Assembly (NCBI GenBank): GCA_949290575.1
Contig: CASESJ010000001.1
Span: forward strand, 496,001 to 560,000
Reading direction: 5' to 3'
Source: an uncultured Clostridia bacterium
GTDB taxonomy: Bacteria; Bacillota; Clostridia; Christensenellales; Borkfalkiaceae
DNA: 64,000 nt
Notes under the pieces: model-generated
What the model saw: only the letters and a program-made list of their open reading frames with translations
What the model was told of the DNA's origin: nothing
Databases searched by the model: none
Shown here: piece after piece, positions 21,718 to 24,012 of the stretch
How the letters are laid out: each line of letters opens with the position of its first letter
Numbering within the stretch: position 1 is the first letter of the stretch
Made by a program: the position numbers and the translations under genes

Positions 21718-22905
21718 TTAAACGAGCACGATTTTTACGTGCACTTTTTTGCCCTTGTGAAGGACGTCGCCCGACTTTACCTTAGTATTTATGTCGCTGA
21801 CTTTTTCGTCATTGAGTGACACGCCGCCCTGCGCGACGAGCCTTCTCGCCTCGCCGTTGGACGCACAAAGTCCCGCCGCTACGAGAACGCCGATAATTGT
21901 ATCGTTTTCCGCGCCGACAATCTTTTCGGGAAGGTTCTCGCCGTCGCCGCCGAATGCCGCCTTTGCCTGCGCGCGGGCTTTTTCCGCCTTCTCTTCGCCG
22001 TGAACGAGCTTGGTGAGTTCGAACGCGAGAATTTCCTTCTTTTCGTTTACGCGCTCCGCGCCCCACTTCTCCATCTCAGCAATCTCTTCAAGCGGAATGA
22101 ACGTGAGCATCTTTATGCACTTCATGACGTCGGCGTCGTCCACGTTGCGCCAGTACTGGTAGAAGTCATAGGGCGTTGTCTTGTTCTCGTCCAGCCACAC
22201 CGCGCCCTTTGCCGTCTTGCCCATCTTTTTGCCCTCGCTGTTTAAAAGCAGGGTGATGGTCATTGCATATGCGTCCTTGCCGCTCTTTTTGCGTATGAGT
22301 TCAGTGCCCGCGAGCATATTGCTCCACTGGTCGTCGCCGCCGAACTGCATATTGCAGCCATAGTGCGTATTGAGATACCAGAAGTCGTATGCCTGCATTA
22401 TCATATAGTTGAATTCAAGGAAGGAAAGCCCCTTTTCCATGCGCTGTTTGTAGCACTCTGCGCGCAGCATATTGTTGACGGTGAAGCAGGGTCCGACTTC
22501 CCTCAAAAGGTCTACATAGTTGAGCTTTAACAGCCAGTCGCCGTTGTTGACCATAATCGCCTTGTCTTCGCCGAATTCGATAAAGCGTTCCATCTGCTTT
22601 TTGAAGCACTCGCAGTTGTGATTGATGACCTCGTCCGTCATCATCGTGCGCATATCCGTTCTGCCCGAAGGGTCGCCTATATGACCCGTGCCGCCGCCGA
22701 CGAGCACTACGGGTTTGTTGCCCGCCATCTGCAACCTCTTCATGAGGCAGAGAGCCATGAAATGACCGACGTGCAGACTGTCTGCCGTGGGGTCGAAACC
22801 GATATAAAAACGTGCGCCGCCGTTGTTGATAAGCTGCCTTATCTCCTCTTCGTCGGTTACCTGAGCTATAAGTCCGCGCTCACGAAGTTCCTCGTAAATT
22901 CCCAT
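21718..22905 (-). CDS. tyrS: Tyrosyl-tRNA synthetase
   Basis: TyrRS charges tRNA-Tyr. The 395-residue class I enzyme has a HIGH-like motif (PTADSLHVGHFMAL), the tyrosine-pocket segment NYMIMQAYDF, GGDDQWSNM, a KMGKT form of the KMSKS motif, and a C-terminal S4 RNA-binding domain. I chose ATG 22905 (family start GIYEELRERGL) after AAGGAAAGG; a longer open frame to 22995 would translate the terminator. Upstream are a promoter, a Tyr-rich leader ORF and an intrinsic terminator, suggesting attenuation. Confidence 0.96.
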   Translation of the reverse strand: MGIYEELRERGLIAQVTDEEEIRQLINNGGARFYIGFDPTADSLHVGHFMALCLMKRLQMAGNKPVVLVGGGTGHIGDPSGRTDMRTMMTDEVINHNCECFKKQMERFIEFGEDKAIMVNNGDWLLKLNYVDLLREVGPCFTVNNMLRAECYKQRMEKGLSFLEFNYMIMQAYDFWYLNTHYGCNMQFGGDDQWSNMLAGTELIRKKSGKDAYAMTITLLLNSEGKKMGKTAKGAVWLDENKTTPYDFYQYWRNVDDADVMKCIKMLTFIPLEEIAEMEKWGAERVNEKKEILAFELTKLVHGEEKAEKARAQAKAAFGGDGENLPEKIVGAENDTIIGVLVAAGLCASNGEARRLVAQGGVSLNDEKVSDINTKVKSGDVLHKGKKVHVKIVLV

Positions 22906-22933
22906 AATTGACCTTTCCTTAAATATTTTCCGC

Positions 22934-22971
22934 AAAAAATAAAAGCGGTTTGCCCGCAGGTAAACCGCTTT
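22934..22971 (-). terminator. Attenuator-type terminator before tyrS
   Basis: On the minus strand AAAGCGGTTT (22962-22971) and AAACCGCTTT (22942-22951) form a 10-bp stem with a 10-nt loop, followed by a U-rich run. It lies inside the tyrS leader, 36 nt before the tyrS start, so most transcripts should stop here unless antitermination occurs. Confidence 0.85.
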
Positions 22972-23004
22972 ATTCGCGATATGTGCCCACGGCAAATCAA
23001 CGCA

Positions 23005-23067
23005 TTACCAGAAGCGATAATACGAATAGCCGCAGTATTCGAAATTTGCGAAATTACTTGAAATCAT
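23005..23067 (-). CDS. Putative Tyr-rich leader peptide of tyrS
   Basis: A 20-codon ORF lies between the tyrS promoter and its terminator. Tyrosine is at positions 11, 14, 16 and 17 (YCGYSYY), with Phe at 6, 9 and 19 and Trp at 20. The predicted transcription start coincides with the A of its ATG and there is no Shine-Dalgarno, so translation would be leaderless. The coding RNA holds CGAAUA and UAUUCG; CGAAUA recurs at the foot of the terminator, allowing alternative pairings. Position and composition fit ribosome-mediated attenuation. Translation itself is inferred. Confidence 0.65.
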   Translation of the reverse strand: MISSNFANFEYCGYSYYRFW

Positions 23068-23073
23068 AGGAAA

Positions 23074-23102
23074 ATTATAGCACGGGCAGAATATACTGTC
23101 AA
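23074..23102 (-). promoter_or_regulatory. Consensus promoter of the tyrS leader
   Basis: On the minus strand TTGACA (23097-23102), a 17-nt spacer and TATAAT (23074-23079). The -10 box ends 6 nt before the leader ATG. Confidence 0.9.
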
Positions 23103-23103
23103 G

Positions 23104-23805
23104 CTATTCGGTAAAAAAATCCTGCGCGTTGAGATGTCGGCGAGCCTTTTCTATGGCGCGTTTTTCTATGCGCGATATGTATGAACGCGATATCCCCAGC
23201 CTCTTTGCCACTTCCCTCTGCGGCAGAGGAACGCCGTCCTCCAGCCCGTAGCGCAGCGTTATGATGGTGTACTCGCGCATATTTAAAATATCCTTCAGAA
23301 GTTTTACGAATTTTTCGCGCTGGACAGACTGTTCCACTTTGGCAAACACGCTCTCCTTTTCGGCGACGACGTCCATAATCGTAAGTTCGTTTCCGTCCTT
23401 ATCGAACCCGACGGGGTCGGAGAGCGACAGCACGTTTTTATGCTTCTTGCCCGCGCGCAGCAGCATTAAAATTTCGTTCTCTATGCACCTTGCCGTATAC
23501 GTTGCAAGCGCGGTGCCCTTGCCCTCCTGATAGGTGTTTATTGCCTTTATCAGCCCTATCGAGCCGACGGACATCAGATCGTCGTTGTCCGCCGCGCCCG
23601 AGTATTTTTTTACGATATGCGCGACAAGGCGCATATTGTGCTTTACCAGAATGTTTTTAGCCTCCTTATCCCCCGCATGCGCGAGCGCGAGATACTTTCT
23701 CTCCTCCTCGGGCGGCAGTGGCTTGGGAAATGCGCCCTTGCCCTGCACTACGCCCGTAAAGAGAAAAATTTTGCTAAGAAATAGCCCGATTACATCAAAT
23801 AACAT
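23104..23805 (-). CDS. sigK: RNA polymerase sporulation sigma factor SigK
   Basis: SigK directs late mother-cell transcription in sporulation. The 233-residue protein has a hydrophobic N-terminal pro-sequence (about 1-20), region 2 (HNMRLVAHIVKKY to [17 protein letters not shown]) with the SigK-type GKGTALATY segment, and region 4 with ISRSYISRIEKRA. The gene is continuous, so no skin-type element interrupts it. AAGGGG precedes the ATG. The protease that removes the pro-sequence is not in the window. Confidence 0.93.
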   Translation of the reverse strand: MLFDVIGLFLSKIFLFTGVVQGKGAFPKPLPPEEERKYLALAHAGDKEAKNILVKHNMRLVAHIVKKYSGAADNDDLMSVGSIGLIKAINTYQEGKGTALATYTARCIENEILMLLRAGKKHKNVLSLSDPVGFDKDGNELTIMDVVAEKESVFAKVEQSVQREKFVKLLKDILNMREYTIITLRYGLEDGVPLPQREVAKRLGISRSYISRIEKRAIEKARRHLNAQDFFTE

Positions 23806-23835
23806 AAACTGTTTCCCCTTTTTTATCAGTTTAAT

Positions 23836-23865
23836 AGCTTATGAATTACACGGTTTGTACTATTC
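23836..23865 (-). promoter_or_regulatory. Possible SigE-type promoter of sigK
   Basis: On the minus strand GAATAGT (23859-23865), 15 nt, then CATAAGCT (23836-23843) resembles the SigE consensus. SigE control of sigK is known in Bacillus. The match is imperfect. Confidence 0.35.
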
Positions 23866-24012
23866 AGGCGGACAAATTGTCTTTTTTTATGAGCGCGATT
23901 ATTATTTTTTTATCTGCTCGGCTGTTCACCTTTTCACATAAAACTTACTGCGGACAGGCGCATTTTTACGCGTTTCTACATTCAACCTCCAACGTTTAAT
24001 ATATTTTAAAAC

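Follow-up and report, generated by a model that had tools for sequence, protein, structure and literature searches.

How is tyrS, the gene for tyrosyl-tRNA synthetase, controlled in an uncultured gut member of the Clostridia whose T-boxes serve other genes? A T-box is the usual regulator of tyrS elsewhere in Clostridia, being present at 11 of 20 loci, including in the sister genus g8. The genome studied here has seven T-box matches of its own, among them those before aspS, leuA, pheS, ileS, cysE, and a trpB-like gene, with none at tyrS. In the window (the whole 64,000-nt stretch of DNA that was analyzed), the tyrS leader gave no T-box match at the gathering score, and none at an E value of up to 1 between 22880 and 23200; nor did the Rfam search find any other relevant family at this leader. 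Both a T-box and other Rfam elements were accordingly rejected for this leader, the T-box even at the relaxed threshold. A preliminary description of this DNA had proposed a leader-peptide attenuator before tyrS, to be abandoned if a T-box sequence was found, and on this point the proposal stands.

On the minus strand of the window, the sigK-like gene is followed by a promoter, a leader ORF, an ORF-free stretch, a terminator, and tyrS.

23104..23805, minus strand: sigK-like sporulation sigma factor gene (NF004471, E 1.4e-87)
23074..23102, minus strand: sigma-70 promoter, 12/12 consensus, spacer 17 nt
23005..23067, minus strand: leader ORF MISSNFANFEYCGYSYYRFW*, 20 codons, ATG at 23067, stop TAA at 23007-23005
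22934..22971, minus strand: intrinsic terminator (3:4), AAAGCGGTTT-ACCTGCGGGC-AAACCGCTTT followed by TATTTTTT, -14.0 kcal/mol
21718..22905, minus strand: tyrS, the regulated gene, encoding a tyrosyl-tRNA synthetase of 395 aa (TIGR00234, 402 bits, E 2.6e-120)

The promoter matching the consensus at 12 of 12 positions, the 20-codon ORF with Tyr at codons 11, 14, 16, and 17, and the intrinsic terminator were all part of the preliminary description and are present as it had them. The -35 hexamer TTGACA (23102-23097) starts 1 nt past the stop of the sigK-like gene, the -10 hexamer TATAAT (23079-23074) is TG-extended, and no rival promoter-like site in 22000-24000 scored above 9/12. A gap of 6 nt separates the -10 from the ATG. 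With the usual start point taken as 7 nt after the -10, the expected transcription start is therefore the A of the ATG itself (23067), and the leader ORF is probably leaderless, its predicted 5' end coinciding with its start codon. The four Tyr codons lie at 23037-23035, 23028-23026, 23022-23020, and 23019-23017, and the peptide further contains three Phe and one Trp. The terminator has arms AAAGCGGTTT and AAACCGCTTT, loop ACCTGCGGGC, and U-tract TATTTTTT; its stem ends 36 nt before the tyrS ATG, which is preceded by an SD-like AAGGAAAGG, and its core, GCGGTTT..CCTGCGGG, is kept within the subclade. The 134-nt leader folds better than 200 of 200 dinucleotide shuffles (z -2.97). The regulated gene matches the amino acid that would be sensed, being tyrS by profile match in the window and by search design in the relatives. 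The sigK-like gene is the kept upstream neighbor of tyrS across the genus, with either of two TyrS types, and is outside the switch.

To see how far this arrangement extends, 201 genomes from the family and 93 from the genus were screened for TyrS, and 147 upstream regions were read. Leaders were called blind to Tyr, by a promoter with at most two mismatches, an ATG 4-11 nt after the -10 and more than 110 nt before tyrS, and an ORF of 10-40 codons. The same layout was present in 44 of the 147 regions, spread over six genera (g1, 23; g9, 10; g3, 4; g5, 3; g11, 3; g12, 1); 17 of these leaders are from genus-g1 genomes with the TyrS type of the window and 27 accompany the second type. Their ORFs have 16-35 codons and their promoter spacers 17 or 18 nt; sample peptides are MITANSANFLYCGYSYYRYW (L003), MAGLNFAHLYYRGFFVLL (L062), MKRSLAVAIYGYLYYACL (L044), MNIYAIKNGYVYYCAYYRYGMYVL (L040), and MKNYFAYVTTAYYAAYYSCDDTLLRRAKAK (L230). 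Every one of the 44 ORFs, picked without reference to Tyr, contains two to eight Tyr codons. Tyr makes up 172 of 948 residues (18%) in frame, against 23/948 and 24/948 (2.5%) in the other two frames; Phe makes up 7.8% of the leader residues. The gap between the -10 and the ATG is 6 nt in 32 leaders, 7 in 5, and 9 in 7, and gaps of 4, 5, 8, 10, or 11 nt occurred in none of the 44, with a search allowing 4-11. Six of the seven leaders with a 9-nt gap carry an A at the seventh position after the -10, from which a 2-nt 5' end is predicted. A terminator-like hairpin with a T-run is found in all 44 (in L059 by the wider search alone), and the stop codon often lies inside the hairpin that precedes it, called 1:2 below. 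The alignment of related genomes that the preliminary description had called for is thus in its favor: Tyr codons, ORF, terminator, and the two alternative stems are kept in the 44, and the stems co-vary. In a simple scan of 24 tyrS loci from other families of the order (one without a start), neither such a leader nor a T-box motif was found, which makes the leader a family-level device as far as sampled.

Some leaders are conserved beyond their Tyr codons. The peptide start M-K-x-F-x-x-x-N-G recurs in genera g1 (with the second TyrS type), g3, and g5 (e.g., L048, L181, L188, L207, and L236). In L048 and L236, the ACGGTTT matching this peptide start is able to pair with an AAACCGT that follows the Tyr codons; L234 has a compensated version, GGCTT with AAGCC. 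This pairing and its compensation suggest a further stem in those leaders.

How could Tyr codons govern the terminator? Compared side by side, the leaders of the family follow one plan of four segments: segment 1 lies in the Tyr codons, segment 2 after them, segment 3 spans the terminator's 5' arm plus loop, and segment 4 is its 3' arm. In the window leader, the parts are as follows.

23018..23035, minus strand: segment 1, within the Tyr codons, comprising CTGCGGC (23035-23029) and CGTATTA (23024-23018), from the MFE structure
22976..23007, minus strand: segment 2, comprising TAATGCG (23007-23001), GCCGTGG (22993-22987), CCGTGGG (22992-22986), and ATCGC (22980-22976)
22954..22992, minus strand: predicted antiterminator hairpin (2:3), from folding the nascent transcript with its Tyr codons under a ribosome and from co-variation in the family

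In the 1:2 hairpin, CTGCGGC pairs with GCCGTGG, and CGTATTA with the TAATGCG that contains the stop codon. Segment 1 shares CTGCGG with the terminator loop, which puts segments 1 and 3 in competition for segment 2. As predicted by comparison and folding, the antiterminator is CCGTGGG pairing with CCTGCGG (22960-22954) plus ATCGC pairing with GCGGT (22968-22964). Two other pairings had been put forward earlier. ATCGCTT at the ORF end and AAGCGGT in the terminator arm are able to pair, as claimed, but as an antiterminator this pairing was rejected, both elements being absent in all 14 relatives checked, even in the nearest (96% identical). Likewise, CGAATA and TATTCG lie where they had been placed, but a stem between them is not conserved and was discarded, with the CGAATA of the ORF missing from the same number of relatives checked (14/14), the 96%-identical one included.

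The proposed pairings were assessed by co-variation: each genome's segment 2 was hybridized in silico with the segment 3 of all genomes. A genome's own 2:3 pair averaged -17.2 kcal/mol compared with -14.5 (sd 0.4) for permuted pairs, and none of 100,000 permutations was as good, a p-value that is descriptive because the start of segment 2 was moved post hoc to the last Tyr codon and ten of the terminators were placed manually. The result was likewise 0/100,000 with one genome per clade (25 genomes). An earlier version of the test, with segment 2 starting at the stop codon, was weaker (4/20,000) because longer leaders end after segment 2. For the 1:2 pairing, 1 of 100,000 permutations was as good, and 3 of 100,000 with one genome per clade. 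Dinucleotide-shuffled segment 2 reached -12.5 kcal/mol with segment 3, with 0 of 200 sets attaining the own-pair mean, and 24 of the 44 leaders individually did better than their shuffled versions at p<0.05. Without gaps, the best 2:3 helices span 6-14 bp, and their sequence varies among clades: GCGCGTAAA:TTTGCGCGC and GCGCGTAAAT:GTTTGCGCGC (L211), GAGCAAA:TTTGCTC (L174), GCGTGCAGAC:GTCTGTGCGC (L198), GGTAAACG:CGTTTACC (L047), and CCGCGGGTAAA:TTTACCTGCGG (L062).

The effect of ribosome position was modeled by folding the leader as transcribed as far as the terminator loop, while barring from pairing the nucleotides under the ribosome, from 15 before the A-site to 14 past it. In the window, the modeled probability of the 2:3 helix was 0.8-1.0 for a ribosome at the four Tyr codons, about 0.1 for one at codons 3-7, and 0.36 without a ribosome. 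Over the 44 leaders, the mean was 0.65 at Tyr codons, 0.55 at codons before them, 0.36 without a ribosome, and 0.30 at the stop. The difference between Tyr codons and no ribosome is clear (Wilcoxon, 1e-10), whereas that between Tyr and earlier codons is modest over the family (p 0.03). In this model, Tyr stalling would free segment 2, and once the ribosome has departed the 1:2 hairpin could form again. In the window leader, a ribosome kept at the stop codon also favored the antiterminator (0.9), so termination there would depend on fast release. Equilibrium folding of the full leader was rejected as a test of the switch: in the full window transcript the terminator had a probability of 0.88-0.92 wherever the ribosome sat. 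Since the finished transcript favors the terminator in all states, the window switch must be kinetic, as in classical attenuators.

Taken together, we put the probability at roughly 0.9 that the locus is a ribosome-mediated transcription attenuator that senses charged tRNA-Tyr through Tyr codons and controls tyrS, as read from comparative sequence and modeling. Transcription would start on or beside the leader AUG, and a ribosome would load at the bare 5' end. With ample Tyr-tRNA, it would pass the Tyr codons, reach the stop, and depart; segment 1 could then pair with segment 2, leaving segment 3 free for the 3:4 terminator, and transcription would end before tyrS. With scarce Tyr-tRNA, the ribosome would stall on Tyr codons 11-17 and cover segment 1, so that segment 2 could pair with segment 3 as it emerges (CCGTGGG:CCTGCGG plus ATCGC:GCGGT), the terminator would come too late, and tyrS would be transcribed. 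The decision would fall while segment 3 emerges from the polymerase. We infer the stalling, the direction of the response, and the leaderless 5' end; the ORF, its Tyr enrichment, the promoter spacing, the terminator, the co-varying stems, and the linkage to tyrS come from sequence and comparison. The mechanism class in the preliminary description, in which Tyr shortage stalls a ribosome on the leader and blocks termination, gains support from the conservation and co-varying stems in the 44 genomes.

One part of this proposal, the leaderless start, could be wrong while the attenuator works as described. The transcript might start further upstream, with translation by way of an SD-led ORF or by ribosomes finishing sigK; the 5' end is a predicted one, and the sigK-like stop lies so close (1 nt) before the -35 that read-through transcripts could exist. 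However, all 44 genomes keep the promoter at a fixed 6 (7, 9) nt from the ATG, and elsewhere in this genome long CDSs open with an ATG 6 nt past a -10, so we regard an upstream start as improbable. When the genome was scanned for promoters with a start 6 nt after the -10, an exact ATG stood at 25 of 76 sites, compared with about 18 of 92 at a control spacing of 4 nt and 10 of 78 at 13 nt (counted by eye). The ATG excess at the 6-nt spacing is moderate. Besides tyrS, 12 of 15 inspected 6-nt sites open long CDSs, including Fur-like, BioY-like, and IspE-like ones and others, named by reading the sequences. Many long CDSs of this genome, at loci L081-L083, L273-L289, and L294, seem to have their ATG 6 nt past a sigma-70 -10, so leaderless genes may be widespread in this lineage of Clostridia. 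A survey reported that the predicted leaderless genes of Firmicutes cluster in Lactobacillales and Mycoplasma (PMC3160421). Pattern searches of the same genome, at the sites inspected, found no second leader-peptide attenuator. An ORF of 9 codons outside the window, MYYYNYALR, lies a few nt after a perfect promoter (G000:C1:305776-305811, minus strand, locus L079). It directly precedes a gene, probably for a membrane protein, that has an SD-like AGAGAGGAAAA, and no obvious terminator is present; the ORF could be a Tyr-rich uORF or a chance product of AT-rich sequence.

Other explanations concern what the leader senses, or whether it senses at all. A sensor of aromatic residues in general (Phe plus Tyr), or of translation speed, would agree with the three Phe and one Trp in the window peptide and the family-wide Phe content, and the C. 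glutamicum AroR leader (Phe-Tyr-Phe) is reported to respond to Phe and not to Tyr (PMC11802643). However, Tyr outnumbers Phe in the leader peptides (18% vs 8%), masked folding places the Tyr codons where a stalled ribosome would uncover segment 2, and the downstream gene is tyrS, with pheS having a T-box match of its own; we hold such a sensor to be unlikely. We give even less credence to an incidental ORF beside a terminator controlled by a tRNA- or ligand-binding RNA, such as a degenerate T-box, a riboswitch, or a protein site. T-boxes do serve relatives and other genes of this genome, and conserved nucleotide motifs surround the 1:2 hairpin, but no T-box matched even at an E value of 1, Tyr codons are enriched in frame only, the start lies at a fixed distance from the promoter, and the stop lies inside the 1:2 hairpin. 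A vestigial switch, in which the terminator alone or a promoter behind it sets expression, is very improbable in the window to a similar degree, where ORF and stems are intact and the gap between terminator and tyrS (36-39 nt in the window and L003) is too short for a second promoter. Its attraction comes from close relatives. L006 has a frameshifted leader, and L056, L057, L060, and L063 have kept the terminator and lost the ORF, a situation that the preliminary description had counted against itself. It does occur in these four, yet their leader promoter is gone or degraded as well, and at least L056 carries, past the terminator, a promoter-like TTGCAT..TTAAAAT, so the state looks like decay. 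Several other leaders, though not that of the window, also have a promoter-like site between terminator and tyrS. The close relatives look like stages in the decay of the attenuator, from frameshift through ORF loss with the terminator kept to full loss, the last seen in L066, a member of the type-1 TyrS clade described below whose leader is wholly lost.

The Tyr attenuator may also have a history apart from that of the enzyme that it would control. In genus g1, two TyrS types adjoin sigK, type 1 being that of the window and type 2 about 60-66% identical to it. The types are fully separate in the TyrS tree, in which type-1 proteins with intact or decayed leaders form one clade (SH-aLRT 95). 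The SigK tree intermixes them (e.g., L016 with L251, and L090 with L256), and tyrS has therefore been exchanged at the sigK site more than once. This exchange beside sigK, several times within one genus, can be followed in the window (21718-23805) and at loci L002-L024 and L251-L259. In some pairs, leaders of different types resemble each other in more than their Tyr codons: the L005-L236 alignment has a z of up to 12 against codon-preserving shuffles, and none of 300 such shuffles reached the score of the L002-L044 alignment. Local alignments of other cross-type leader pairs were not significant against such shuffles. The sequences are compatible with either of two courses, a leader that stayed while tyrS was exchanged or one that joined type-1 tyrS once. 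On balance, we favor the broader reading that a leaderless sensor of Tyr-tRNA replaces the tyrS T-box throughout the family and is a movable cis module controlling two exchanged TyrS enzymes, with appreciably less confidence than we have in the attenuator itself. The locus offers a clean case for comparing how one tRNA sensor takes over from another, in a genome where T-boxes still serve other amino acids. It offers such a case, too, for leaderless translation among Clostridia and for regulatory elements that outlive the genes under their control. The 44 natural variants form a series for studying how leaderless ribosomes keep pace with RNA polymerase.

Attenuators of this general design are familiar. 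In E. coli, pheM-pheST, trpL, and pheL combine a leader ORF rich in the cognate amino acid with a terminator and an alternative antiterminator. As in the tyrS leader, pheM-pheST controls a tRNA-ligase gene. Attenuation of pheST, pheL, and trpL is cited in PMC11802643. These E. coli attenuators respond to Phe or Trp and are SD-led and proteobacterial, whereas the leader described here has Tyr codons, no room for an SD, and a host among Clostridia. Another parallel is found in the His leader peptides before hisS*/hisZ in Bacillus (PMC2965389), where a leader peptide likewise takes the place of a T-box before a gene of the tRNA-ligase family in a Firmicute; they differ in sensing His, in serving paralogs, and in not being reported there as leaderless, whereas the present leader serves tyrS family-wide. 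In that survey, from 2010, the occurrence of regular leader peptides among Firmicutes was itself presented as new (PMC2965389), and a Leu-rich leader controls ilv-leu in S. aureus (PMC5794164). Candidate trpS and leuS attenuators in Streptomyces (PMC1262725) also precede tRNA-ligase genes, but they are actinobacterial and concern Trp and Leu. The AroR leader before aroF in C. glutamicum contains Tyr, like the tyrS leader, and was reported to respond to Phe and not to Tyr (PMC11802643). Leaderless precedents exist in trpL of S. meliloti (PMC7298713) and, as far as the citing article conveys, in the polycysteine ORFs of mycobacteria (Canestrari 2020, cited in PMC13236596). In these the AUG is the 5' end of the transcript, as predicted for the tyrS leader; the precedents as described there are from Alphaproteobacteria and Actinobacteria and sense Trp or Cys, in contrast to Tyr in Clostridia. 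The literature searched showed no Tyr-responsive leader-peptide attenuator, which is weak evidence, most subscription papers being outside the search. The T-box tyrS leaders of Clostridia (RF00230) share the gene, the signal (uncharged tRNA-Tyr), and the outcome (antitermination), but bind the tRNA directly without translation, and T-box features are absent from the window leader. The mechanism class is known, while the sensing of Tyr, the leaderless start in Clostridia, and the use across a family appear to be new.
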